Below, one piece after another: positions 5,588 through 58,500 of a stretch of 64,000 bases of DNA (its first letter is position 1; each line of letters starts with the position of its first letter). The translations under genes and the position numbers were made by a program. Below the pieces are notes generated by a model that made no database searches, was not told where the DNA came from, and saw only the letters and a program-made list of their open reading frames with translations. This stretch comes from Calliopum simillimum (taxonomy: Eukaryota; Arthropoda; Insecta; Diptera; Lauxaniidae), in contig OX638371.1 of assembly GCA_951812925.1 (NCBI GenBank), forward strand, positions 44,986,101 to 45,050,100, given 5' to 3'.

Positions 5588-8349
5588 TAGTGTGTATCGA
5601 AAAACGAACACCCAATTCCACACTCAAATTATGAAAGAAGAGAGATAAAAAAATCAGGGAATATAAATTTTTTTACTTTAAAATAAATTCCTAGCTGGCC
5701 AAATGGCCATTGTTTATAAAAACCCAATGATTTTGCACTGGAGCCTATCTAACGGTAAATTTTTTTCCAAAAAACACCATAGATATCGATTTGTGCTCTA
5801 AAACAACTTATGTGTGCAAATTTTCAGAGAGATCGTATGACGTGCAGGAGCGTCAGCAAAGGAATAAGAAACGATTATCTTTAATGAAATGAATACTTTT
5901 TGTACTGGAGCCTATCTAGCGGCAGATTTTTTTCCAAAAAACACTACAGATCTCAGTTCGTAGTCGAAAACAACTTATGTATGCAATTTTTCAGAGAGAT
6001 TGTATGACATGCATGAGTGTCAGCAAAGAAAAAAAAGCACTTATTTTCAATCAAACGTTTAATTTTTGTACTAGAGTCCATCTAACGATTCATTTTTTTC
6101 AAAAGAAACTTGTGGTACTTGATTCGTCATAAAAAATAAACTATGCACCCAAATTTTAAGATTGGTGGAACGACGTGTGGGAGTGTCAGCGAAGGATTAA
6201 AAAATGGTATACAGCCATTTCATGCCAATCGTAACAAGATCTGGCACACCCCTTCCGATTTCGCTGAAATTTGGTACATGGTTTCGTTTCATGCTTAAAC
6301 TTTGAGAAATGGCAAAAAAAAAAAAATGTTGCGATTTTTTTGTGGCTTGTGGAGGGGTGCAAAAAGTCGAAAAATAGGTAAAATGTAACAAACTCTCCTC
6401 AAATAATTACCAATAACTTGGCCATTTCTTAACCGATTTTCATGTTTAGACCTGTTTTGGAAAGGCATTGAATCAGGCTATAAGCCGCGCTGCAATACGA
6501 TTACGTCCAAAGGGACTTATAGAAAAAATTTGTTTCGACGCACAATGGCACTTTTTAGCTATATCTCACGAAAAAGGGCTATGAGATGGTATTGGTGGCT
6601 CCTTCAAACGAAATTCTTCAAGAGCAAGTTTGCAAAAACCTCACCAAGGCCAAAAAACTGATGCCAGGGCACCTTTCGAATGAGCAAATAGTTAAAAGTC
6701 CGACATAATTTATCGATATTGTGCAATTGCTGAATATGAAGCACCTGCATCGCAACTCTCCAACGCTTTTCAAAATGTAAAAGCCATGCCAGGGACCCAG
6801 AAATTTCATGATTTTGTTCCCTTAGGCCGTAACCGTATTGCGCATTTCATTTTCAAAATCTTTCGAGGAATTCAAAATGATGTAAATTACAAAAAAACCT
6901 ACATTGTACGAAATATTGCATGTACTGAAATGTTCAAAAAATCATTACTCCTATACCATTAATGGTACCATCCAAATTTTAGATTCATTTGAAAGGTAAT
7001 TTTGTCTTCTTTTCTAAAAAAATTTTTTGGAAGGTCGAAAATAGATACTAAAGCGTTTTTAGTAGTTTAGTACTAAAATAGCAAAATTAGTAATTTTTAC
7101 CAAACACAAAAAACTTTTACTTGTGCGCATAGAATGATTCAATCTCTTTCTAAAAATGGTCCAAACATTAAAATGAGATAAGAAATGTTCCAGCTATGGG
7201 CCATTTTCTGATCGGACCTTTTTTTAAATTTCCAAAAAATCATAACTTCTTATCCTCGAGACATACCAATTTTCTCTCTTTTTTGACTGAAAGATTTTTT
7301 TTTTTTTTCTTTCCAAAAAAAAATATTTTGTAAGGTAACAAAAGTGTACTCGGGCACGTTTTTTGTAGTTTAGTACTAAAATAGTAATAAATGTAGTACT
7401 TTTTATCAACTACGAAAAATTTTATTTTGAACTTATAGCCTTATTCAATGCCTTTCCAAAACAGGTCTAAACATGAAAATCGGTTAAGAAATGGCCAAGT
7501 TATTGGTAATTATTTGAGGAGAGTTTGTTACATTTTACCTATTTTTCGACTTTTTGCACCCCTCCACAAGCCACAAAAAAATCGCAACATTTTTTTTTTT
7601 TTTGCCATTTCTCAAAGTTTAAGCATGAAACGAAACCATGTACCAAATTTCAGCGAAATCGGAAGGGGTGTGCCAGATCTTGTTACGATTGGCATGAAAT
7701 GGCTGTATACCATTTTTTAATCCTTCGCTGACACTCCCACACGTCGTTCCACCAATCTTAAAATTTGGGTGCATAGTTTATTTTTTATGACGAATCAAGT
7801 ACCACAAGTTTCTTTTGAAAAAAATGAATCGTTAGATGGACTCTAGTACAAAAATTAAACGTTTGATTGAAAATAAGTGCTTTTTTTTCTTTGCTGACAC
7901 TCCTGCATGTCATGCAATCTCTCTGAAAAATTGCATACATAAGTTGTTTTCGACTACGAACTGAGATCTGTAGTGTTTTTTGGAAAAAAATCTGCCGTTA
8001 GATAGGCTCCAGTACAAAAAGTATTCGTTTCATTGAAGATAATCGTTTCTTATTCCTTTGCTGACGCTCCTGCACGTCATACGATCTCTCTGAAAATTTG
8101 CACACATAAGTTATTTTAGACCACGAATCGATATCTATGGTGTTTTTTGGAAAAAAATTTACCGTTAGATAGGCTCCAGTGCAAAATCACTCGGTTTTTA
8201 TAAACAATGGCCATTTGGCCAGCTAGGAATTTATTTTAAAGTCAAAAAATTTATATTTCCTGAGTTGTTTATCTTTCTTCTTTCATAATTTGAGTGTGGA
8301 ATTGGGTTTTAAAACTCGTCCATATATTTCAATACACACTAATAGATAT
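5580..8349. mobile_element. hAT-type foldback element, 2754 bp, TSD ATAGATAT
   Basis: The body is 5588-8341, starting TAGTGTGTATCG and ending ATACACACTA. The 8-bp duplication ATAGATAT at 5580-5587 and 8342-8349 fits the hAT rule nTnnnnAn, and the terminus TAGTG fits the hAT YAGNG rule. The arms are inverted copies over most of the length; for example, TGGCCAAATGGCCATTGTT near 5697 pairs with 8201-8220, and the MKRNHVP... shadow frame occurs in both arms. No transposase remains. Within each arm, units of about 125 bases recur (5740-6190), each with a form of AGAGAGATYGTATGACRTG and CAGCAAAG. Confidence 0.9.
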
Positions 8350-20984: not shown

Positions 20985-21182
20985 TTTAAAGATAATTTCG
21001 GTAAAAAAAAATTGACTTGAATTTTTTCGCAGAAAAATTCTAATTCATCATACGTGATGAAGTTATAAATAAACTAATTAATGCCAAACTTTTTAGATTT
21101 CACTGGCGGTTTTTATACCTTTTTCCCTAAATAAACTGTGTTTGCTTTTGTAAGATTCTGTTCAATATATAATTTTACTTAC

Positions 21183-22136
21183 ATTGCTTAAGGACACATC
21201 CACCTTAGACACTACAACAGTACAGGATAATCTTGGTCGTTTTCTAGTACGCAAAGGTAGCTTGCAGCGTTCCCGCTTGCATTGCGCTCGGGCACATATT
21301 GGATATATAACATAATCGTGATTTTTGCTATCACATAATACATTTATACGCTCGAGGAGCTCTTTAGACGTTAAGTTACTACAACAATTTTCATCAGTCA
21401 TCCGGTCCCAGTATACTGCAAAATTATTCAACTCAATTAACTTATACGCAATATCCTTTTCAGTCGGCATTTTAGATCCCAGTGACCATTTCGAATCGCA
21501 ACTCTGAACTGTCAATGAGTCAATTGTAATGCCTGCGGCAAAATTAAAATTCGGAACTGTGATAGAGTCTTCGTAACGAATGTGTACATCACGTATTTTA
21601 AGTTCCAAATTCTCTACAATATTTGTTGCAAGTGCCGTGCCATAATTAAGCCAATTTGTATAAGATGTGGCGTAGTAAAAACTACCCGTTGGGTTATAGC
21701 CCTTTTGTGCTCTCCAGACAGCTTCTTTAGAATCCAGTTCTGACATTTTGTACTGAAGTTCAGCAAAACGTTCAGCATCGTCATTCCAATCATTAGGATC
21801 CTTTGGACTGAATACAACATACACTTGCTCAATAACGACGCACCATGGCGCTGTCTTGAATTGACGAACGGGGATTTGTAATTTAATTTTTCCAATAACC
21901 CCAGACACCGCTTGAACCGGCAAACCAAACGATCGCAACGCGTCTTTCCGTATTGGAACATTTTCCAATTCAACCTCACCTTCAAAAATTTAAATCGTAT
22001 TAGTCGGTGCCAAAATATAATGTTCCAAAGTTTGCTTACCAGATAACAAAGCAACTGATAACTGAGCTGGGTTAAAGTCTTCTAAATATTTCCCCAAGTA
22101 AGTATTTAAGACCCAAGTTATAAGTTCTCTCAACAT
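21183..22136 (-). CDS. Vps13D: Vps13D-like protein, first two coding exons
   Basis: Exon 1 is 22040-22136 (97 nt, ATG at 22136) and exon 2 is 21183-21979 (797 nt). The intron at 21980-22039 is 60 nt with GTAAGC at the donor and AG at the acceptor, and exon 2 ends in a consensus GTAAGT donor. Together they give 298 uninterrupted codons. The start MLRELITWVLNTYLGKYL and the blocks ELENVPIRKDAL, GKIKLQIPVR and IVENLELKIRDVHIRYEDS are the Chorein-N region of VPS13 proteins, closest to VPS13D. These bridge-like proteins carry lipids between membranes at organelle contacts, and VPS13D acts at mitochondria and peroxisomes. There are no stops or frameshifts and the splice sites are good, so the gene looks functional here. 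The next exon was not found in 1-21182. Confidence 0.9.
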
Positions 22137-30196: not shown

Positions 30197-31941
30197 ACTA
30201 GTTTACAGCCAAAATTCCCAGCGAATGCCGTTACTCATTTTATATGGAAAATGGGCTGCTGATTCCGAAAATCGCATTTTTTTTTTTTTATTTCGTGTCG
30301 TTTTCGAGATATCGGTCATTTTTGGTTTTTGGACCAAAAAAAAAAGATAGTTCCATTAAAATACAAATATCTCAAGAACCAATGTTTGTATTTAAACAAA
30401 TAATATGTCATATTAAAGGTAATTAAATTACCTACAAATGAAATTCACTTCACTTTTTGGTTGGTTCGTTAGTTTCGGTGAAATAAATTGATTTCTAAAA
30501 AAAAAAATTTTTTTTTTTCGAAAAAATTAAGAAAAAATCAAATTCAACTTCAAATTTATACAAGAAGACATAACTTTTTTATAATATTTTTTTTTTGTAT
30601 CATAGACTATATATTTGTGAAGAAAATAAGATATCATTTAAGAAAATCGATGGAAAAATGCAAAAGTTGTATACAATTCATTGATAAGTTACCAAAATGC
30701 GTTTTTCCCTATTTTTCCGTTTTTTTGTAATAAACTGTTCGAAAATTTGAAACTTTTTGTAAAAGAAATTAGAAAATCCAAAAAATTCTTAAAGAAGGCA
30801 TTAAAAGGAAATACCCGCGCCTCGCCGTTTTTCTCTAGAACGTCAGATTTTTTTTTAATCGATTTTTGAAGTTTTTTAATCCACTGTACATGAAAAAACA
30901 GAAATAACGCATTCTTGTGTTAAATCGATGAATTTAACTATATGATCGTTACATCTGGGGTGTATTATGTGTTCAGTAAACTTATGCAGGATACTGTGAG
31001 GAATATTATTGTAGAAAATTTTAACCCTCTAAAACCCTCACATACGGGTCATTTTGACCCCCACATGAAGGTCATTTTGACCTACATGTGGGGGTTTGAG
31101 AGGGTTAAAATTGTCTACAAAAATATTCCGCGTAGTATCCTGCATAAGTTTGCTGAAGACATGGTACACCTCAGATGTAAGGATCATATAGTTAAATTCA
31201 TCGATTTAACACAAGAATGCGTTATTTCTGTTTTTTCATGTACAGTGGATTAAAAAACTTCAAAAATCGATTAAAAAAAAATCTGACGTGCTAGAGAAAA
31301 ACGGCGAGGCACGGGTATTTCCTTTTAATGCCTTCTTTAAGAATATTTTGGATTTTCTAATTTCTTTTACAAAAAGTTTCAAATTTTCGAATAGTTTATT
31401 ACAAAAAAACGGAAAAATAGGGAAAAACGCATTTTGGTAAGTTATCAATGAATTGTATACAACTTTTGCATTTTTCCATCGATTTTCTTAAATAGTATTT
31501 TATTTGCCTAACAAATTTATAGACTATGATATAAAAATACAAAATGATTTTTAAAATTTTTTTTCTTGTAAAAATCTGCAGTTGATTTAGACATTTTTGT
31601 AATTTTTTCGGAAAAATATACTCTTTTTTTTAGAAATCAATTTATTTCATCGAAAGTAATAAACCACCCAAAAAGTGACGTGAGTATCATTTGTAGGTAA
31701 TTTAATTACCTTTAATATGACATATTATTTGTTTGAATACAAACATTGGTTCTTGAGATATTTGTATTTAAGTGGAACTATCTTTTGTTTTTGGTCCAAA
31801 AACCGAAAATGACCGATATCTCGAAAACGACACGAAATAAAAAAAAAAATTGCGATTTTCGGAATCAGCAGCCCATTATCCATATAAAATGAGTAACGGG
31901 ATTCGCTGGGAAAAAAAATTTTAATCATTTGTAAACTAGTG
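30197..31941. mobile_element. Foldback element of about 1.75 kb
   Basis: The ends are CACTAGTTTAC and its inverse GTAAACTAGTG. The arms match nearly throughout (30220-30420 with 31720-31905, 30660-30900 with 31240-31480, 30905-31020 with 31095-31230). The centre near 31060 carries a compact palindrome around GGTCATTTTGACC. No transposase and no convincing target duplication were found. Confidence 0.85.
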
Positions 31942-35399: not shown

Positions 35400-36066
35400 A
35401 GTTTTTTTCTTCTGAAAAATAGGTTATTTTAAACGCCATCCCGTTACGCTTGCGCGAACCCCCCCTCCCCCCTGTGACAAAAAGTGACGCTTGCTCGAAC
35501 CCTTTAGTATTTATAATTAAATTTGTAGTTTGTATGTAGTTATTTAGATTTAAGGTTATTTGATAAAACATCAAAGATACCTCAAAAAGCCTTGAGCAAG
35601 CTTTTGATTTTTCCATCTGTAATAATATTGCTGTCAGCATTTTGCAAGACTCCACTGTAATAGAATATATTATATCAATGGGCGTGATAACAAATTTTTG
35701 AAACTGCGTTTTTTGTGCACACACTCGTCGTCTATTTCTGAAAAAAACATTTTTTTTGCATTAAATTAATGTTAAATAGCAAATTTTTGCATTTATTACT
35801 TACTTTGAAGTTTGAGCCAAAAACGCTGTCAAATATATTATTACGTCATAGTTATGTTACTGTTGCCAGATTAGGGACTTGAAGCCTACATTTAGGGACA
35901 TTTTCTGCTGTAGAACACAAATATTTTATTTTTCCTTTTCTGTTTAAGTTAATCTGCAACACACTAATTTATCATTGTTTTTTTGTGTGTTTTTTTTTTT
36001 AATTTTGAATTCGATTTGGAAAGAAATTTGTACATGTTTTTTTATTTTTTTTTTTTTTTTCAACTA
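35400..36066. other. Non-coding stretch; left part of the tandem block begins at 35898
   Basis: A 79-bp segment at 35599-35677 recurs at 47929-48007. A C-rich run stands at about 35460-35470. From 35898 onward the sequence is repeated at 39841. Long T runs stand at 35989-36000 and 36049-36060. No gene was recognised. Confidence 0.5.
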
Positions 36067-36363
36067 ACTGCCATACTTAAATTGGAGCGTCAGGTGTTGC
36101 GTTATTTAACGTTACACAAAAGCGTCAAGCGCCATACCGAAATAAAGAGCGTTGCGTTGAAGTTATTTGTTTGTCAAAATCAGATAGTTTCTTTTTTTAC
36201 TTTTCTGCAGCTAACTTCACTCCATAACGCTTTGTCAAAATTGGAAATTCGAATAGCTCAGCGTTGAGCGTTGGCAATTTCGGTATGCGCCATACAAATT
36301 GTATGTACATGAGAAATTTTTGACAGTAAAATAACGCTGACGCTCCAATTTAGGTATGGCAGT
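36067..36363. mobile_element. 297-bp MITE, copy 1
   Basis: The ends are ACTGCCATACTTAAATTGGA and the inverted TCCAATTTAGGTATGGCAGT, about 27 bases each side. The interior is non-coding. The second copy lies at 40009-40305. Confidence 0.75.
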
Positions 36364-36482
36364 GAGACACTGCAAGACAAATGTCAAATCAAAATGACAA
36401 CAAACTGCTGTCAACGCGTTGATGCTAAATAAAAGTGAATTTTGTACGGCTATAAGCTATTTTGTCTAATTTCGTGATAAAA

Positions 36483-36674
36483 ATGAATTTCAAAGTTTTT
36501 AAGTCGTGTGGAGTCTCTCTGTGTAAGAACTCATCAATTAAAACTCCTAGCAAATTATTTGTGAACGTTCCAAAAAATAAAATAATAAGAGATAAGTGGC
36601 TAAGTTTTGGAGGATAAGACCCAGCAGTCTTATCCAAAAATGCGATAATTTATTTTTGTGAAGACCACTTTGTT
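36483..36674 (+). pseudogene. THAP-domain exon with an internal stop, copy 1
   Basis: From the ATG at 36483 the frame gives a C-x4-C start (SCGVSLCKN), LFVNVP, RDKWLSF, and after a TAA at 36615-36617 continues in the same frame to YFCEDHF. This is the C2CH zinc pattern of a THAP DNA-binding domain, found in P-element-type transposases and host factors. The exon ends at a consensus donor (GTAAGT at 36675). A possible acceptor TTTTCAG stands near 36862, just before the LINE. The stop in an otherwise complete domain marks a pseudogene or the remains of a DNA transposon. Confidence 0.75.
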
Positions 36675-36987
36675 GTAAGTACTTCAATGTCAGCATTCGT
36701 GATGGCTATCAAAATTCGAAAAACAACTGTCGCAGATTTTTCGGCTTGTCATTTTTGTCGTGTGTATCCATTTAAATATTTTGACACAAAAACAAAAAAA
36801 GATATTTATGTATACATATTTTTCAAATAAATACAGGATTGCGGTTTTTGTAAAACTTTTCAGGGATAAACGATGTCAGATGTAAAGAAAAAAAATACGT
36901 TGATCTGGTAACACACCATTATGTCATCGTCAGCCAATCAAAATCATGTAAAACTAAAAAATTATCTGATTGGTGTTTGACACAATA

Positions 36988-38239
36988 TTTTATTTATTTA
37001 TTTGAGTCTTTGGATAGTAACAACCCTTACAGACTAGAACAATTCAAATTAAATATATGAAAATAATAAATATATACTTAAATATAATGAAAATTTAACT
37101 AAGCTAAGAGCCTAAGCAGTATAGATTTAAATTGAGCTTTATTCAAACAAAAATCAATTGAAATATCTTTATATAATTTATTTAACAATAAAAGAGTTCT
37201 ATTGATGGGCTCATTTATGGCATAGTTCGACCTGTGACATTTAATATTAAAATAGTCTGAAGATCGTAAAGACCTGGAGGGAATGTTAAACGCTATTAGC
37301 TGTAGGATGTCAGGACAATCAATAAAACCATTAATGACGTCATAAATAAACATAATGCTGTGAACAAGACGCCGATTTTCAAGAGTTTCAAGATGTATGA
37401 GCAAACAGCGAGCATTGTATGATGGTAACGGTTCAGTAAAACCCAATGAGTGTAAGGCAAACTTAATAAATTTCCTTTGAACACGCTCCAAACGAGTAAT
37501 GTGAACCCCATAGTAAGGATTCCAAATAAAAGAAGCGTATTCCAAATTGGACCTTACAAACGAAGTATAGAGAAGTTTCTTGGTAAAAGGATCTATAAAC
37601 GCAGCACTATTCCTTTTAATAAATACTAAAAGGGAATAAGCTTTAGGCAAGATATGATTTACATGATTTGTAAAGTTTAAACGTGAGTCAAAGTAAATAC
37701 CAAGATCACGAATTTGGTCAACTCTAGTTAAAGGCACATCTTCTATACTATATAAATGCAACAAAGGATTATTAAGTTTAGAAAAGGTCATACAAGAGCA
37801 TTTACTTAAGTTCAAAGACAAGCAATTGTGACTGAACCAAGTAACAACATTATTCAATTCATTTTGGAGAGTGCAACAATCAGATGTATTACTAACTTTA
37901 TAATAAATTTTTAAATCATCAGCATATAAGGAAAACCGTACCAAAGAAAAACAGGTTGAGATATCATTAATATATAGAATGAATAACAGTGGACCAAGTA
38001 TGCTGCCTTGTGGTACTCCAGAAGTTATTAAGAAAGATTGTGATTTAACATCATCAATGGCTACAAAAGAGAACCTATTCGATAGGTATGATTTCAGCCA
38101 AGAAAGGAACGTTGAATGGAAACCTAGTTTGGATAGTTTAGAAATTAACAAACAGTGCGAAACTTTGTCAAAAGCTTTCGAAATATCCGAATAAATAACG
38201 TCCACCTGATCACCACTTTCAAATGAGTTAATACAATAT
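36988..38239 (-). pseudogene. CR1/Jockey-like LINE 3' half, copy 1
   Basis: A 381-codon open frame (37099-38244) encodes the RT from SDISKAFDKVSHCLLISKL (first Asp) through SGVPQGSILGPLLFILYIND, SLYADDLKIYY (catalytic Asp pair) and YASFIWNPYYGVHITRLERV. It lies on the minus strand with a 3' tail of AAATAAATAAATAAAATA at about 36988-37012. The RT active site is intact here. The missing upstream part of the same LINE is found at 43522-43603 and 45230-47500. The frame begins at the retrozyme insertion point, so it is not a complete gene. Confidence 0.9.
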
Positions 38240-38298
38240 TGCAATTTTTCAATTATAATTAATTTAGTAAAATAAATATAATTATAATTACAACAAAA

Positions 38299-38345
38299 AT
38301 AGTCTGATGAGTCTTTGTGGCGAAAGACGAAACATATGTCACTAT
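38299..38345 (+). ncRNA. Type I hammerhead ribozyme 1
   Basis: Stem I pairs AUAGU (38299-38303) with ACUAU (38341-38345). The core is CUGAUGA, stem II is GUCUUU/AAAGAC with loop GUGGCG, then GAA, stem III AC/GU with loop AUAU, and cleavage follows C at 38340. All conserved core bases are present. Confidence 0.92.
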
Positions 38346-38701
38346 AGCCGTGTTTTTAATCCGTTCCTTGATTTGTCATAATTATGTGTTAGAAAAATGC
38401 ATTGATAGATTTATATGTAAATCGATCTTTGCAAATATATGACTAAAAGTTCAATTAAAAAATCAATTTTCTATATATAAAATGTCATTAAGTAACACAC
38501 TTAAAAATTCTTAAAAAAAAAAAGTTATTTGGGAGAACACGCCCTGATAAGGTGGAAACACCTGCAATCGGTATTGAATTTGTTCCAAAGGAACAACTAT
38601 ACCAAATATCAATAAATAACACAAACAACAATTATGATATATCAATACGTATTAACACACAAACAAAACTGGCAAAAGTCGGCTTCGCAGCAGGGCAAGG
38701 C

Positions 38702-38755
38702 TGGTGTAGTGGTAACGACTGCTGCTACCAACCTGGAGATCCTTGGTTCGACTCC
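38702..38755 (+). promoter_or_regulatory. tRNA-like Pol III A and B boxes in Y unit
   Basis: The A box TGGTGTAGTGGT (38702-38713) and the B box GGTTCGACTCC (38745-38755, a full consensus match) are spaced as in tRNA genes. The flanks GGGC and GCCC could close an acceptor-like stem. The same pair recurs at 39663-39716, 42644-42697 and 43198-43251. It may drive Pol III transcription of the repeat. Confidence 0.8.
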
Positions 38756-38849
38756 CGCCCAGACCAAAAACCACAAAAAGTTTTCAAACTTGCAATTTTT
38801 CAATTATAATTAATTTAGTAAAATAAATATAATTATAATTACAACAAAA

Positions 38850-38896
38850 ATAGTCTGATGAGTCTTTGTGGCGAAAGACGAAGCATATGTCACTAT
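38850..38896 (+). ncRNA. Type I hammerhead ribozyme 2 (A15.1 to G variant)
   Basis: It is identical to ribozyme 1 except that GAAAC reads GAAGC, which turns the closing A-U pair of stem III into G-U. Stem I, stem II and GUC at the cleavage site (after 38891) are kept. Activity may be lowered. Confidence 0.85.
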
Positions 38897-39040
38897 AGCC
38901 GTGTTTTTAATCCGTTCCTTGATTTGTCATAATTATGTGTTAGAAAAATGCATTGATAGATTTATATGTAAATCGATCTTTGCAAATATATGACTAAAAG
39001 TTCAATTAAAAAATCAAATTTCTATATATAAAATGTCATT

Positions 39041-39446
39041 TAGGGCCGTTTTCACAATGTCCAGTTAACGTTTAACTGAAACTTTAACTGTAAGTTTGTA
39101 TAAAATGGTTTTCTCAATGTGAAGTTATTTATTAACTGACGTAAAATAAACTCTAACGATCAGTTAACTTTAACTGGCACAATGTTTTCGGTTAAAATTT
39201 AACTGGCAGATTGAAATAAATTCAAATATTTTTTGAAATTCATATGAAAAAATTTGAAATGTTTACATTTTTTGGAAACATTTTAAGGGGAAATTTGTTA
39301 TTTATTCACAATATATATTTAACCATAGGTTAAAAATTGGAATTTATTGAAATCCAAATAATTTAACGGAAAGTTTATACCAATAGCTTTCGTTAGTAAA
39401 CTTTAGTTTAAAAATATCTTAACTGGACATTGTGAAACCGGCCCTA
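39041..39446. mobile_element. 406-bp MITE in copy 1 only
   Basis: The ends TAGGGCCGTTTTCACAATG and the inverse (CATTGTGAAACCGGCCCTA) enclose a non-coding interior rich in TTAACTG/CAGTTAA. The same place in the other units (for example 42431-42440) reads ATGTCATTAAGTAAC without insert, which gives an empty site. The duplication at the ends is a TA or related short sequence with one extra T. Confidence 0.88.
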
Positions 39447-39810
39447 AGTAACACACTTAAAAATTCTTAAAAAAAAAAAAAAAAGTTATTTGGGAGAACA
39501 CGCCCTGATAAGGTGGAAACACCTGCAATCGGTATTGAATTTGTTCCAAAGGAACAACTATACCAAATATCAATAAATAACACAAACAACAATTATGATA
39601 TATCAATACGTATTAACACACAAACAAAACTGGCAAAAGTCGGCTTCGCAGCAGGGCAAGGCTGGTGTAGTGGTAACGACTGCTGCTACCAACCTGGAGA
39701 TCCTTGGTTCGACTCCCGCCCAGACCAAAAACCACAAAAAGTTTTCAAATTTGCAATTTTTCAATTATAATTAATTTAGTAAAATAAATATAAATATAAT
39801 TACAACAAAA

Positions 39811-39840
39811 ATAGTCTGATGAGTCTTTGTGGCGAAAGAC
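39811..39840 (+). ncRNA. Hammerhead ribozyme 3, truncated after stem II
   Basis: AUAGU, CUGAUGA and stem II are present to AAAGAC at 39840. GAA, stem III and the cleavage site are replaced by the start of the second tandem block. It cannot cleave. Confidence 0.9.
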
Positions 39841-40008
39841 ACATTTTCTGCTGTAGAACACAAATATTTTATTTTTCCTTTTCTGTTTAAGTTAATCTGC
39901 AACACACTAATTTATCATTGTTTTTTTGTGTGTTTTTTTTTTTAATTTTGAATTCGATTTGGAAAGAAATTTGTACATGTTTTTTTATTTTTTTTTTTTT
40001 TTCAACTA

Positions 40009-40305
40009 ACTGCCATACTTAAATTGGAGCGTCAGGTGTTGCGTTATTTAACGTTACACAAAAGCGTCAAGCGCCATACCGAAATAAAGAGCGTTGCGTT
40101 GAAGTTATTTGTTTGTCAAAATCAGATAGTTTCTTTTTTTACTTTTCTGCAGCTAAATTCACTCCATAACGCTTTGTCAAAATTGGAAATTCGAATAGCT
40201 CAGCGTTGAGCGTTGGCAATTTCGGTATGCGCCATACAAATTGTATGTACATGAGAAATTTTTGACAGTAAAATAACGCTGACGCTCCAATTTAGGTATG
40301 GCAGT
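40009..40305. mobile_element. 297-bp MITE, copy 2
   Basis: It is a near-identical counterpart of 36067-36363, with a difference near 40156 (CTAAATTC against CTAACTTC). Confidence 0.75.
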
Positions 40306-40424
40306 GAGACACTGCAAGACAAATGTCAAATCAAAATGACAACAAACTGCTGTCAACGCGTTGATGCTAAATAAAAGTGAATTTTGTACGGCTATAAGCT
40401 ATTTTGTCTAATTTCGTGATAAAA

Positions 40425-40616
40425 ATGAATTTCAAAGTTTTTAAGTCGTGTGGAGTCTCTCTGTGTAAGAACTCATCAATTAAAACTCCTAGCAAATTAT
40501 TTGTGAACGTTCCAAAAAATAAAATAATAAGAGATAAGTGGCTAAGTTTTGGAGGATAAGACCCAGCAGTCTTATCCAAAAATGCGATAATTTATTTTTG
40601 TGAAGACCACTTTGTT
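40425..40616 (+). pseudogene. THAP-domain exon with internal stop, copy 2
   Basis: It is the same exon as 36483-36674, with the same TAA (40557-40559) and the same GTAAGT donor. The stop therefore predates the tandem duplication. Confidence 0.75.
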
Positions 40617-40931
40617 GTAAGTACTTCAATGTCAGCATTCGTGATGGCTATCAAAATTCGAAAAACAACTGTCGCAGATTTTTCGGCTTGTCATTTTTGT
40701 CGTGTGTATCCATTTAAATATTTTGACACAAAAACAAAAAAAGATATTTATGTATACATATTTTTCAAATAAATACAGGATTGCGGTTTTTGTAAAACTT
40801 TTCAGGGATAAACGATGTCAGATGTAAAGAAAAAAAATACGTTGATCTGGTAACACACCATTATGTCATCGTCAGCCAATCAAAATCATGTAAAACTAAA
40901 AAATTATCTGATTGGTGTTTGACACAATATT

Positions 40932-42181
40932 TTATTTATTTATTTGAGTCTTTGGATAGTAACAACCCTTACAGACTAGAACAATTCAAATTAAATATAT
41001 GAAAATAATAAATATAAACTTAAATATAATGAAAATTTAACTAAGCTAAGAGCCTAAGCAGTATAGATTTAAATTGAGCTTTATTCAAACAAAAATCAAT
41101 TGAAATATCTTTATATAATTTATTTAACAATAAAAGAGTTCTATTGATGGGCTCATTTATGGCATAGTTCGACCTGTGACATTTAATATTAAAATAGTCT
41201 GAAGATCGTAAAGACCTGGAGGGAATGTTAAACGCTATTAGCTGTAGGATGTCAGGACAATCAATAAAACCATTAATGACGTCATAAATAAACATAATGC
41301 TGTGAACAAGACGCCGATTTTCAAGAGTTTCAAGATGTATGAGCAAACAGCGAGCATTGTATGATGGTAACGGTTCAGTAAAACCCAATGAGTGTAAGGC
41401 AAACTTAATAAATTTCCTTTGAACACGCTCCAAACGAGTAATGTGAACCCCATAGTAAGGATTCCAAATAAAAGAAGCGTATTCCAAATTGGACCTTACA
41501 AACGAAGTATAGAGAAGTTTCTTGGTAAAAGGATCTATAAACGCAGCACTATTCCTTTTAATAAATACTAAAAGGGAATAAGCTTTAGGCAAGATATGAT
41601 TTACATGATTTGTAAAGTTTAAACGTGAGTCAAAGTAAATACCAAGATCACGAATTTGGTCAACTCTAGTTAAAGGCACATCTTCTATACTATATAAATG
41701 CAACAAAGGATTATTAAGTTTAGAAAAGGTCATACAAGAGCATTTACTTAAGTTCAAAGACAAGCAATTGTGACTGAACCAAGTAACAACATTATTCAAT
41801 TCATTTTGGAGAGTGCAACAATCAGATGTATTACTAACTTTATAATAAATTTTTAAATCATCAGCATATAAGGAAAACCGTACCAAAGAAAAACAGGTTG
41901 AGATATCATTAATATATAGAATGAATAACAGTGGACCAAGTATGCTGCCTTGTGGTACTCCAGAAGTTATTAAGAAAGATTGTGATTTAACATCATCAAT
42001 GGCTACAAAAGAGAACCTATTCGATAGGTATGATTTCAGCCAAGAAAGGAACGTTGAATGGAAACCTAGTTTGGATAGTTTAGAAATTAACAAACAGTGC
42101 GAAACTTTGTCAAAAGCTTTCGAAATATCCGAATAAATAACGTCCACCTGATCACCACTTTCAAATGAGTTAATACAATAT
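40932..42181 (-). pseudogene. CR1/Jockey-like LINE 3' half, copy 2
   Basis: The 381-codon RT frame (41041-42186) is identical in protein to the copy at 37099-38244, including YADD. Its upstream continuation is displaced to 43522-43603 by the retrozyme array. The LINE reads through TTAATACAATAT on both sides of the array, where the text CTFTRYCI joins to NSFESGDQV. Confidence 0.9.
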
Positions 42182-42240
42182 TGCAATTTTTCAATTATAA
42201 TTAATTTAGTAAAATAAATATAATTATAATTACAACAAAA

Positions 42241-42287
42241 ATAGTCTGATGAGTCTTTGTGGCGAAAGACGAAACATATGTCACTAT
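42241..42287 (+). ncRNA. Type I hammerhead ribozyme 4
   Basis: It has the full motif with canonical GAAAC. Cleavage is predicted after C at 42282. Stem I is AUAGU (42241-42245) with ACUAU (42283-42287). Confidence 0.92.
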
Positions 42288-42791
42288 AGCCGTGTTTTTA
42301 ATCCGTTCCTTGATTTGTCATAATTATGTGTTAGAAAAATGCATTGATAGATTTATATGTAAATCGATCTTTGCAAATATATGACTAAAAGTTCAATTAA
42401 AAAATCAATTTTCTATATATAAAATGTCATTAAGTAACACACTTAAAAATTCTTAAAAAAAAAAAGTTATTTGGGAGAACACGCCCTGATAAGGTGGAAA
42501 CACCTGCAATCGGTATTGAATTTGTTCCAAAGGAACAACTATACCAAATATCAATAAATAACACAAACAACAATTATGATATATCAATACGTATTAACAC
42601 ACAAACAAAACTGGCAAAAGTCGGCTTCGCAGCAGGGCAAGGCTGGTGTAGTGGTAACGACTGCTGCTACCAACCTGGAGATCCTTGGTTCGACTCCCGC
42701 CCAGACCAAAAACCACAAAAAGTTTTCAAACTTGCAATTTTTCAATTATAATTAATTTAGTAAAATAAATATAATTATAATTACAACAAAA

Positions 42792-42838
42792 ATAGTCTGA
42801 TGAGTCTTTGTGGCGAAAGACGAAGCATATGTCACTAT
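42792..42838 (+). ncRNA. Type I hammerhead ribozyme 5 (A15.1 to G variant)
   Basis: It is the same as ribozyme 2, with GAAGC in place of GAAAC. Cleavage would follow C at 42833. Confidence 0.85.
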
Positions 42839-43345
42839 AGCCGTGTTTTTAATCCGTTCCTTGATTTGTCATAATTATGTGTTAGAAAAATGCATTGATA
42901 GATTTATATGTAAATCGATCTTTGCAAATATATGACTAAAAGTTCAATTAAAAAATCAATTTTCTATATATAAAATGTCATTAAGTAACACACTTAAAAA
43001 TTCTTAAAAAAAAAAAAAAGTTATTTGGGAGAACACGCCCTGATAAGGTGGAAACACCTGCAATCGGTATTGAATTTGTTCCAAAGGAACAACTATACCA
43101 AATATCAATAAATAACACAAACAACAATTATGATATATCAATACGTATTAACACACAAACAAAACTGGCAAAAGTCGGCTTCGCAGCAGGGCAAGGCTGG
43201 TGTAGTGGTAACGACTGCTGCTACCAACCTGGAGATCCTTGGTTCGACTCCCGCCCAGACCAAAAACCACAAAAAGTTTTCAAACTTGCAATTTTTCAAT
43301 TATAATTAATTTAGTAAAATAAATATAATTATAATTACAACAAAA

Positions 43346-43392
43346 ATAGTCTGATGAGTCTTTGTGGCGAAAGACGAAACATATGTCACTAT
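43346..43392 (+). ncRNA. Type I hammerhead ribozyme 6
   Basis: It has the full canonical motif. Cleavage would follow C at 43387. It sits in the last X unit of the array. Confidence 0.92.
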
Positions 43393-43521
43393 AGCCGTGT
43401 TTTTAATCCGTTCCTTGATTTGTCATAATTATGTGTTAGAAAAATGCATTGATAGATTTATATGTAAATCGATCTTTGCAAATATATGACTAAAAGTTCA
43501 ATTAAAAAAAAATCAATTTTC

Positions 43522-43603
43522 TTAATACAATATCTTGTAAAGGTACAGAGATTTGTAAGGGTAGATCTTCCAAGTAGAAAACCATGTTGGTACGGACAAA
43601 CTA
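43522..43603 (-). pseudogene. CR1/Jockey-like LINE, RT internal piece
   Basis: On the minus strand the text CPYQHGFLLGRSTLTNL corresponds to the conserved Q-x-GF-x-x-GRST block just before the first catalytic Asp. It lies between the retrozyme array on the left and a Tc1 foldback on the right, and joins in frame to both neighbouring LINE pieces. Confidence 0.9.
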
Positions 43604-45231
43604 CAGTAGGTCCAAGCCAAAGTCGTACACCAAACAAACTTTTTTTCAATGACCCAAAACTAAGTACGCAAAAATAATTTATGAAATTTTAAGTACATTT
43701 TTAAATAGCCTATTTAATCCTTCAATTTTAACAAAAAACCAAACTTGAAATTTTCTGTTATTTTTGAAAATAAATAAAAAGTTACAGAAATCAAGCATAT
43801 TCAGTACCAAAGCCAAAATCGTACACCTTAACAAAATTATAATTTTTACATGAGTTCAGTAATTAGTGTACATTATATTGTTTTTATTTGTCATGTTTAG
43901 TCCTTTTGGCATCCTTTGAATTAGTTTTTCACAATAGCTCGGATAAATTTTTTCCCATTTTCCATGAATACCCTTTTCAGTTCAGTTTTTGAAGAAATTT
44001 GTGCTGGCGAACTTTTGCGTCCAGATAATTCCACAAGATTTTAATAGTATTTATATCTGGACCCTGCGCCAGTGTTACGAATATATTGGGACAGTTCTAT
44101 TGAATCCATGATCTCATATTATAAGGAATATGTTTGAGATCGTTTTCTTGGTAATAATACATATCACTACATTGACCAAGTTTATCCTTAAATTGCAGTA
44201 AATTTAGTCTTAAAATGTTCAAATAAATCTTATGATCCTTGCTTCCATCAACAAAATGGAGTATTCCAGGCCTAGCTGCTGAAAAGAGCCCCAAACCATT
44301 AGTGAACCACCTTCATGTTTTACATTTGGTCTAACGTTTTTCTTTAATAAAGAAGAAGCATCAAGAGGCTCGGTTGCTGTTTGCTTAAACTCACTGCTAT
44401 AAAGATTTTTTCTTTTGGAAAAATTTTCTCTTAATACTTTTGGATCAGACGGCAGACCATACATATTGAGAAAACCAACTGAAGCACCTTGTTCGAAAAA
44501 CCTTAAACCATATGTAAAACATGACGGTTGTTCACTAATGGCCCTTTTTCAGCAGCTGGGCCTGGAATACTCCATTTTGTTGATAGTAGTAAGGATCATA
44601 AGATGTATTTGAACATTTAGAGACTAAATTTATTGCAATATAAGGATAAACTTGGTCAATATAGTAATAGGTACTTTTAATAAAATAACGATTTCAAACA
44701 TATTTCTTATAATATGAGATCATGGATTCAATACAACTGTCCCAATGTATTCGTAACACTGGCGCGGGGTCCAGATATAAATGCTATTAAAATCTTGTGG
44801 AATTATCTGGACGCGAAAAGTTCGCCAGCACAGTATTTCTTCAAAAACTGAACTGAAAAGGGTATTCATGGAAAATGGGAAAAAATTTATCCGACCTATT
44901 GTGAAAAACTAATTCAAAGGATGCGAAAAGGACTAAAGATGAGAAATAAAAACAAAATAATGTACACTAATAACTGAACTCATGTAAAAATTATAATTTT
45001 GATAAGGTGTACGACTTTGGCTTTGGTACTGAATATGCTTGATTTCTGTCACTTTTTTATTTATTTTCAAAAATAAAGAAAAATTTCAAGTTTGGTTTTT
45101 TGTTAAAATTGAAGGATTAAATAGGCTATTTAAAAATGTACTTAAAATTTCTTAAATTATTTTTGCGTACTTAGTTTTGGGTCATTGAAAAAAGTTTGTT
45201 TGGTGTACGACTTTGGCTTGGACCTACTGTA
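43602..45231. mobile_element. Tc1-type foldback, TSD TA, with inverted transposase ends
   Basis: The body is 43604-45229 with ends CAGTAGGTCCAAGCC and GGCTTGGACCTACTG, and TA on each side (43602-43603, 45230-45231). The arms are long inverted copies (about 43604-44350 with 44480-45229). Both arms hold the C-terminal half of a Tc1 transposase pointing inwards to outwards: the left arm reads on the minus strand (GLFSAARPGILHFVDG, then the DDE region with QENDLKHIP), the right arm on the plus strand. The block normally reading DLNPIENLW is DINTIKILW, and frameshifts are present, so no enzyme is made. Confidence 0.88.
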
Positions 45232-56340: not shown

Positions 56341-57025
56341 GTAATTATAATTATATTTATTTTACTAAATTAATTATAATTGAAAAATTGCAATTTTGAA
56401 AACTTTTTTGTGTTTTTGGCCTGGGTGTGAGTTGAACCAAGGAACTCGCGGTTGGTAGCAGAAGTCGTTACCACTGCACCAGCCTTGCCCGGCTGCGAAG
56501 CCGACTTTTGCCAGTTTTGTTTGTGTGTTAATACGTATTGATATATCATAATTGTTGTTTTGTGTTATTTATTGATATTTGGCATAGTTGTTCCTTTGGA
56601 ACAAATTCAATACCGATTGCAGGTGTTTCCATCTTATCAGGGCGTGTTCTCCCAAATAACTTTAAGAATTTTTAAGTGTGTTACTTAATGACATTTTATA
56701 TATAGAAAATTGATTTTTTAATTGAACTTTTTAGTCATATATTTGCAAAGATCGACTTACATATAAATCTATCAATGCATTTTTCTAACACATAATTATG
56801 ACAAATCAAGGAACGGATTAAAAACACGGCTATAGTGACATATGTTTCGTCTTTCGCCACAAAGACTCATCAGACTATTTTTGTTGTAATTATAATTATA
56901 TTTATTTTGCTAAATTAATTATAATTCAAAAATTGCAAGTTTGAAAACTTTTTTGTGTTTTTGGCCTGGGCGTGAGTTGAACCAAGGAACTCGCGGTTGG
57001 TAGCAGAAGTCGTTACCACTGCACC
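56341..57025 (-). mobile_element. Retrozyme-like fragment, minus orientation (partial Y, X, Y, partial X)
   Basis: On the minus strand, a partial Y unit (57025-56938) with a B box is followed by a full X with hammerhead (about 56937-56707), a full Y with A box (56470-56481) and B box (56428-56437), and the start of another X (56390-56341). It is more diverged than the arrays at 38240 and 42182, so it is an older, independent insertion. Confidence 0.88.
56832..56878 (-). ncRNA. Type I hammerhead ribozyme 7 (minus strand)
   Basis: On the minus strand it has AUAGU, CUGAUGA, stem II GUCUUU/AAAGAC, canonical GAAAC, AUAU loop, GUC and ACUAU. Cleavage falls between 56837 and 56836. The core has stayed intact although the surrounding unit is diverged. 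Confidence 0.9.
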
Positions 57026-57153
57026 ACTGTAATTATAATTACAACAAAAATAGTCTGATGAGTCTTTGTGGCGAAAGACGAAACATATGTCACTATAGTC
57101 GTGTTTTTAATCCGTTCCTTGATTTGTCATAATTATGTGTTAGAAAAATGCAT
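57026..57153 (+). mobile_element. Retrozyme-like X fragment, plus orientation, head-to-head with previous
   Basis: The orientation flips at 57025/57026 in the middle of the A box of the minus copy. The fragment contains the X part from just before the hammerhead to GAAAAATGCAT, where a foldback element interrupts it. Confidence 0.88.
57050..57096 (+). ncRNA. Type I hammerhead ribozyme 8
   Basis: It has the full canonical motif with GAAAC. Cleavage would follow C at 57091. Confidence 0.9.
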
Positions 57154-57611
57154 TTTTTAATAAACAAATAGATATTTAAGCTATACCTATAGCAAAATAA
57201 AAACAAATTTTTTATACATGCTCTGAAATCTGCACAATATTTCTGTGAAAAAAAATTGGAGGTACTCATCATTAACAAAAAAGTTTCGCGTACTTAAATG
57301 ACTCTACACAGGTGCCTTGCCTATGCGATTCACACATTTACGCTCGCTGCGCGTTCTTACGTGCATTCTCAATTTCTGCATAAATTATGATTTGTTGTTT
57401 TGAAACGGCATGCAGCGGTGAAATGCGAAAATCACATAGGCAAGGCACCTATGTAGTGGCATTTAAGTACGCGTAACTTTTTTGTTAATGATGAGTACCT
57501 CCAATTTTTTTCACAGAAATGTTGTGCAGATTTCAGAGCACATTTCTGTATAAAAATTTTGTTTTTATTTTGCTATAGGTATAGCTTAAATATCTATTGG
57601 TTTATTAAAAA
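57154..57611. mobile_element. 458-bp foldback MITE inserted in retrozyme fragment
   Basis: The ends TTTTTAATAAAC and GTTTATTAAAAA lead into arms of about 190 bases that match closely (57165-57330 with 57440-57600), with TTTGCCTATGC/CATAGGCAAGGC near the loop. The flanks ATGCAT (left) and GTGCAT (right) may be an eroded duplication. Confidence 0.85.
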
Positions 57612-58500
57612 GTGCATTATTTATAAGAAATTTTAAATATTTTTATGAAAAGTTTATTTCATCTAAATTTTGAATTATTTTTAGTCCCACCACAAAAGTT
57701 TCATAAATTTTCGCTCAATATTTACGGAGAAATCGCAATTTGAAAAAAGACATACATATAAATTCACATGCTTATAACTTTTAAAAAAATTAAAATTTTA
57801 AAAAAAAATATAAGGCAATAATCTAGATCAAAAACTCTTCACAAAACCATCAAAAAAGTTTCAGTTTAACAAGTTTGTTTTTAGTGTGTCCGTTTCAAAA
57901 AATTTAAGTCAGATGTTAAACTTTTGCAAAATTCAAAAACAGCTGATTACTTGCTGTTCGTCATTTTCAAACTTCTTTCATTTAAGCAAGTTTCTATAAA
58001 CATGTGTGGCACTTTCTGTGTCTCTAAAGTTTACTTTTTGTGGTATTTTCTCTCTTCTCCTAATACACAAGGGGAAAAAAGTGCTTCAAAACCCTTTTGA
58101 AGTGCATCTTTTTCACCAATAAGCGCTTCCGCTCCGTAAGAACTTTTCTTTCTTTTTAACATTGCATGTCATAGGATGTAAGCGAGCTTAAGCTTACCGC
58201 TTATTTGTAATGCTGCGGTAAGCGTTTTTTGAATAAAATTAAAAAAAAAAAAAAAACTGGCAGCACCAAGACTTGAATCCACGACCGTCCGTGTGATATA
58301 TAGAAACATATTATTTTTACTTACATTTATTTACCAACTCGCCGCTAAGAGGTATTAAATTTGTACATATATTAAGCAAATGTTGTCCAAACAGAATTTG
58401 ACATTCGAACGATTGCTACAGCCTTACATAGAATCATTGTGCAATATATAAGAGAAAGGAAAATAGAAAAGCGAAATATAAAAATGTTGAATGAAAATTA
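57612..58500. other. No gene recognised; one tRNA-like B box on minus strand
   Basis: At 58270-58280 the minus strand reads GGATTCAAGTC, close to a Pol III B box, followed downstream by a T-rich run. It may be a SINE remnant. The rest shows no coding or repeat signal. Confidence 0.35.

Follow-up and report, generated by a model that had tools for sequence, protein, structure and literature searches.

A hammerhead-bearing tandem repeat inserted into a LINE of Calliopum simillimum, probably of the animal non-LTR retrozyme kind

According to the parts of PMC7229834 that deal with their traits, metazoan non-LTR retrozymes are known by a type I hammerhead, tandem units, a low G+C content and a target-site duplication (TSD) of more than 4 bp, and insects are listed there among the hosts. 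Further marks of the kind are the lack of an LTR, PBS and PPT, expression in the form of self-cleaved circular RNA, and the presence of Penelope-like elements in the same genome. Animal retrozymes are also reviewed in PMC7761336, sections of which describe dimeric hammerheads for animal ribozymes with a weak stem III. In plants, a promoter located in the LTR is reported for a retrozyme, at least at the level of abstracts. The literature compared here does not settle by what route retrozymes are transcribed in animals or what enzyme is responsible for their insertion. Among the matches listed, we noticed no retrozyme of an insect that has Pol III boxes, in a search outside which subscription journals mostly fall, so that absence from print is unproven. 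We present here an insertion, named locus B, in a 64-kb stretch of DNA (the window, meaning the whole stretch analysed). Among the five retrozyme traits tested, four are found at this locus (hammerhead, tandem units, low G+C content and TSD), and the unit size is the one that departs. Locus B is a clean case, with an exact TSD, a restorable target frame, units that can be compared within and between loci, and a candidate promoter, and it can be set beside a second locus whose inverted head is Penelope-like.

The insertion and its copies in the window

The insert of locus B occupies 42182-43521 (1340 bp) and has the structure X-Y-X-Y-X, in which one repeat is present as 551 + 554 + 235 bp, or 2.43 units (1340/551). 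Its features, together with those of two further loci, are as follows.

42170-42181, no strand: left target-site duplication TTAATACAATAT, an exact 12-base match to 43522-43533
42182-42732, plus strand: unit 1 (X1-Y1), 551 bp
42241-42287, plus strand: type I hammerhead of X1, intact, predicted cleavage after 42282
42644-42697, plus strand: Pol III-type A box (42644-42654, TGGTGTAGTGG) and B box (42687-42697, GGTTCGACTCC)
42733-43286, plus strand: unit 2 (X2-Y2), 554 bp
42792-42838, plus strand: hammerhead of X2, A15.1 changed to G at 42825, probably impaired
43198-43251, plus strand: A and B boxes of Y2
43287-43521, plus strand: partial unit 3 (X3), 235 bp
43346-43392, plus strand: hammerhead of X3, intact, predicted cleavage after 43387
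43522-43533, no strand: right target-site duplication, copy of TTAATACAATAT
38240-39840, plus strand: locus A, tandem duplicate of the same insertion, with the left TSD copy at 38228-38239
56341-57026, minus strand: locus C, independent copy of about 1.26 units, 3' end at the palindrome TAATTATAATTA
57027-57154, plus strand: head-to-head inverted piece of locus C with an intact hammerhead (57055), starting at the palindrome TAATTATAATTA

The identity between the two flanking copies of TTAATACAATAT spans exactly 12 bases, and the chance of a 12-base match at a fixed offset is about 2.4e-7 as calculated from the base composition. The target is a LINE reverse-transcriptase frame on the minus strand (RVT_1, E 1.8e-21); the interrupted LINE is presumably jockey-like. 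Once the insert and one duplicate are removed, the LINE frame is restored, with the left flank, one duplicate and 69 right-flank bases joining into one open frame through the site (QHGF..RYCINSFESGDQVDVIYSDISKAFDK), in which the only stop is the frame's own end. Locus B is thus a clean insertion into an older retrotransposon, and both the X-Y-X-Y-X array of 551-554-bp units within a LINE and the perfect 12-bp duplication on its two sides, as put forward in a preliminary description, are borne out. The target site is AT-rich, and any shared sequence at the 3' junction could not exceed 1 nt. No ORF of at least 130 aa lies within the insert, other than the LINE frame entering its left end. The G+C content of the units is 0.32, and since the 64-kb window likewise has 0.32, this trait says little.

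Locus A lies within a segmental tandem duplication (35898-39040 vs 39841-42982, 3143 bp, 99.87% identity) and is not an independent insertion; a MITE-like element of 404 bp interrupts it at 39041-39444, and it ends inside a hammerhead at 39840. The MITE-like insert has inverted ends of the GGGCCGTTTTCACAATG type and is missing from locus B. As a side observation, the duplication spans 35898-43375 with its junction (39840/39841) inside a hammerhead, either as a real duplication or as a misassembly. Locus C is a partly inverted locus (56341-57154) with 94-95% identity to locus B, formed by 686 bp on the minus strand and 125 matching bp head to head on the plus strand. The palindrome TAATTATAATTA, at unit position 52, marks both its 3' end and the start of the inverted piece, whereas its sense part starts at the A box, in the tRNA-like stretch, and not at the palindrome. 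No clean TSD is seen by eye at this locus. The 3' ends are unlike, with unit position 235 in locus B against 52 in locus C. A palindromic MITE-like element (57140-57626, 85% self-inverted) adjoins locus C.

The units within one locus are very similar. Unit 2 of locus B differs from unit 1 by one substitution and three A in one A-run, and unit 3 differs from unit 1 by three extra A in one run, a shift that an ungapped unit listing displays as substitutions. Between unit 1 of locus B and the unit C_b1 of locus C there are 19 substitutions, 13 of them in the 89 positions of the tRNA-like stretch (42644-42732) and 6 in the other 462 (Fisher p 2.7e-7, which counts separately three adjacent differences among the 13 that could be one A-run shift), with none in 52 hammerhead positions. 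In the tRNA-like stretch, the partial unit C_a departs from unit 1 of locus B at 11 positions, and C_b1 has the same difference at every one of them. Compared with each other, the units of locus C differ at 2 of 89 positions and at 2 of 52. This likeness suggests that the units of one locus come from one source unit, which would fit the copying of a circle or of a homogeneous array, and also a later exchange within the locus. Between loci B and C, the tRNA-like module at 42644-42732 diverges far more than the rest, as if it had undergone an exchange.

Among other features of the window, there are large inverted repeats at 1405-2903, 5610-8307, 30215-31912 and 43602-45231 (91-98% identity, possibly foldback or MITE pairs), a frame of a VPS13-family host gene at 21165-21989 on the minus strand (PF12624, E 1.8e-72), and LINE, Pao-type and other retrotransposon frames; the VPS13 exon and these retrotransposon frames are in keeping with an insect host.

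Hammerheads, predicted folding and Pol III-type boxes

The hammerhead cores of locus B are at 42246, 42797 and 43351, and their inspection confirms the parts described before, namely stem I AUAGU/ACUAU, a 6-bp stem II with loop GUGGCG, a short stem III AC/GU with loop AUAU, and GUC. The earlier claim of a complete hammerhead in every X holds for X1 and X3, which are intact, and fails for X2, in which A15.1 is replaced by G (42825, unit position 93), so that a type I descriptor fits two of the three X. On the whole, the 64-kb window has seven cores on its two strands, five of which match the full descriptor (38304, 42246, 43351 and 57055 on the plus strand, 56873 on the minus strand) and all of these within this repeat family, against no match in 150 random second-order Markov windows for a descriptor that was composed after the motif had been seen. 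The X2 cores at 38855 (locus A) and 42797 (locus B) both miss the descriptor by having G for A15.1, and the change, being common to the two loci, probably predates their duplication.

The covariance-model search that had been suggested as a check gave no support at threshold: Infernal with Rfam finds no match in the 64-kb window at the gathering score and reports no type I hammerhead family. Below the threshold, RF00008 Hammerhead_3 appears at three sites of locus B with 24.2, 22.7 and 19.7 bits against a gathering score of 48.5 (E-values 0.024, 0.063 and 0.44 for 1.5 kb), and locus C gives, likewise below threshold, Hammerhead_3 and, at 16 bits, RAGATH-1-hammerhead. We considered a second ribozyme of a known type in Y and rejected it, as Rfam has no match there. 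A possible pairing of loop 1 with loop 2 (GCC with GGC) was spotted by eye and could easily be chance.

The sequence of stem III and its loop, ACAUAUGU, is perfectly palindromic, which would in principle allow a dimeric hammerhead to be built from two units. When two copies are co-folded, however, the minimum (-23.4) is another structure with no recognisable double hammerhead, and it is thus from the palindrome that the idea of a dimer is drawn. For single copies, an 83-nt stretch around X1 adopts another structure, whose energy does not improve on that of shuffled sequences (z 0.94), and 81 nt forced into the hammerhead reach -6.7 vs -9.4 when folding freely. The pairing probability of stems I and II is 0.44-0.63 in stretches of 56-89 nt, drops to 0.03 or less once the local stretch extends 30 rather than 10 nt past the ribozyme, and is back to about 0.5 with 200-300 nt downstream in locus B; it is near zero in the whole circle of B, and 0.09 and 0.26 in the C unit. 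Stem III stays at 0.06 or below in every context. In most contexts, energy models, which leave out tertiary contacts, give the hammerhead no advantage over other folds, and self-cleavage is here a presumed activity. The motif CCACAAA at the end of Y, tried as a specific blocker of the hammerhead, is not supported, because shuffling the last 26 bases of the unit left stem I at 0.053 or less in each of 20 trials, and because stems I and II do reach 0.09 and 0.26 in the C unit. As a circle, the unit RNA is predicted to be strongly paired, with a z of -5.9 relative to 40 shuffles (-3.5 for the antisense and -4.4 for the C unit); among 14 controls of the same length, 12 are between -1.97 and +1.26, and the remaining two (-18.3 and -34.6) overlap inverted repeats.

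In the Y part, TGGTGTAGTGG and GGTTCGACTCC stand 43 nt apart (start to start) in four Y units of loci A and B, and the B box of locus C is degenerate. We identify them as Pol III-type boxes by the usual consensus. No further pair of A and B boxes occurs elsewhere in the window, nor does any in 300 random windows. A tRNA gene in Y is not supported, with no tRNA found there by ARAGORN at default or by the Rfam tRNA model; ARAGORN at -ps80 places five matches in the Y units of loci A, B and C, which say little because there are 29 across the window. Runs of T4 and T5 lie 79 and 94 nt after the A box and might make Pol III terminate prematurely; the boxes could thus be a relic, or could drive only a short RNA.

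Origin of the insert and rival explanations

The element is probably an animal retrozyme of the non-LTR kind, hence a retroelement that is non-autonomous and non-coding, and we infer for it the following route. A tandem genomic copy would be transcribed, by read-through or from the internal A and B boxes; the hammerheads would cut the multimer into units of about 551 nt, singly or as dimers through the palindromic ACAUAUGU; the cut units would be ligated into strongly paired circles; and the reverse transcriptase of a LINE or of a Penelope-like element, priming from a nick in an AT-rich target, would copy the circle or an uncut multimer, where copying beyond one unit would give the X-Y-X-Y-X insert with its 12-bp duplication. 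One end of the insert lies 101 nt ahead of the first predicted cleavage site and the other 134 nt beyond the last, so a single self-cleaved linear monomer is insufficient without end-to-end template jumping. Such jumping between linear monomers may be a further route, and both ends can be explained by about 2.43 rounds of copying on a circle or by an uncut multimer. Insertion by reverse transcription of a circular or multimeric RNA, as proposed earlier, is supported by the exact TSD and the restored LINE frame, and additionally by an insert longer than one unit, ends off the predicted cleavage sites, and near-identical units. The minimum required by the data is the RNA-templated insertion of something longer than one unit. 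Against the retrozyme reading stand the lack of an Rfam match at threshold, the unfavourable folding and the large unit; moreover, there are only two independent loci (B and C), and locus C shows no clean TSD to the eye.

A bolder version of the retrozyme reading, which we put forward tentatively and as rather improbable, would be a composite of a SINE-type internal Pol III promoter and a self-circularising hammerhead unit, providing an endless circular template for Penelope-like mobilisation. Its marks would be head-to-head inverted copies and variable 3' ends, in effect a retrozyme with its own portable promoter, and the tRNA-like module was possibly exchanged between subfamilies.

The strongest competitor is a sub-case of the retrozyme reading with the ribozyme removed from the insertion step, in which an uncut linear multimer of a tandem source is copied by a Penelope-like enzyme with internal initiation, the hammerhead and circles having no part in insertion. 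It deserves serious weight, at somewhat under even chances. As parts of PMC11167929 report for the Anolis Penelope-like element (PLE), mutation of the hammerhead leaves insertion normal, the template in vitro is mainly unprocessed RNA, and reverse transcription begins at an internal site that lacks homology to the AT-rich target; the target of locus B is AT-rich too, with no more than 1 nt shareable at the 3' junction. Likewise, the inverted head-to-head 5' piece that starts from a palindrome in locus C can be compared with several rotifer Penelope copies (passages of PMC3846280). This explanation must, however, let the template RNA keep at least two intact hammerheads uncut, and no Penelope endonuclease (GIY-YIG) domain is present in 10 scanned of the 27 window ORFs of at least 130 aa, which is a weak test. 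Near this subject, TTAAGTAACACACTTAA at 42430-42446 (unit positions 249-265) forms an AC-rich stem-loop 14 nt past the position where the insert of locus B ends, and recalls, possibly by coincidence, the AC-rich stem-loop at which reverse transcription is described to start in part of the Anolis PLE report.

The length of the array could also have been reached in place, by a shorter X-Y-X insert followed by unequal exchange between X copies, which could have added a unit later in a satellite-like growth. X1, X2 and X3 are indeed 235-bp direct repeats that could recombine, and a segmental tandem duplication of the locus exists; yet this history, which we hold to be unlikely, still calls for a first insert of more than one unit flanked by a TSD, and the 64-kb window has no long array. 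We give less credit still to a tRNA-derived SINE moved by a LINE, with an incidental hammerhead. The 43-nt distance between the A and B boxes in four Y units of loci A and B is a tRNA spacing, but the insert starts at unit position 1, 89 nt downstream of the A-box start, which is no Pol III start; the two independent loci have neither a fixed 5' start upstream of the A box nor a fixed 3' tail, their 3' ends being at unit positions 235 and 52; and the T4 and T5 runs at 79 and 94 nt, the lack of a tRNA from ARAGORN at default or the Rfam model, and the degenerate B box of locus C all speak against it. An assembly artefact, with collapsed or falsely duplicated repeats, might be suspected from the 99.87% identity of the tandem copies of loci A and B over 3143 bp; it is very hard to reconcile with the exact TSDs and restored target frame of locus B and with the divergence of locus C, and we hold it to be highly improbable.

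Comparison with known systems

Returning to the retrozyme reading, the repeat resembles metazoan non-LTR retrozymes, as far as the sections cited describe them, in its type I hammerhead with a weak stem III, its tandem units (2.43 in locus B, and 1.26 plus an inverted piece in locus C), its RNA unit predicted to be strongly paired, its low G+C content (the published limit being 45-50%), its TSD of more than 4 bp (12 bp in locus B), and the absence of any coding region seen. It differs in having units of 551-554 bp against about 150-450 bp, or 170-400 nt for expressed animal retrozymes (PMC7229834, in part); this is a usual range and no exclusion, as circRNAs of 150 to more than 1000 nt are mentioned there.

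The SINE-like elements Sm-alpha and Sj-alpha of schistosomes also combine tRNA-related sequence with a type I hammerhead, as stated in portions of PMC2770079 and PMC8490949. Sm-alpha-like elements are counted there among tRNA-Gln-TTG predictions, whereas the repeat of locus B fits no tRNA model, and the Sm-alpha-like W element has 335 bp vs 551 bp here, in different animals. In Dolichopoda cave crickets, the pDo500 satellite, also from insects, has a repeat of about 500 bp whose hammerhead has been suggested to work either alone or in dimers (PMC2837043, in part), and the terms 'polymerase III' and 'SINE' are absent from the main text of that paper. It is described as satellite DNA, whereas locus B is a short insert with a TSD, and the 64-kb window has no long homogeneous satellite arrays. 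Exact-pattern scans for relatives gave 0 in viral contigs and 0 in prokaryotic contigs, which are poor places for an animal repeat.

Penelope-like elements, from what parts of PMC3846280 and PMC11167929 report, share tandem or partial-tandem copies, AT-rich targets, a hammerhead (in Anolis), and TSDs of 8-10 bp in some rotifer copies, and they include inverted 5' copies with a palindrome. The insert of locus B is unlike them in carrying no reverse-transcriptase or endonuclease frame among ORFs of at least 130 aa, and a comparable inverted 5' piece with a junction palindrome is seen in locus C only, one of the two independent loci, with the sense part there starting in the tRNA-like stretch. 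By analogy, the Penelope details would fit loci B and C, and are no proof of the enzyme. Overall, since the traits of retrozymes are mostly present and Sm-alpha already pairs tRNA-like sequence with a hammerhead, this is probably a known kind of element, in which the candidate promoter and the Penelope-like details are the noteworthy points.
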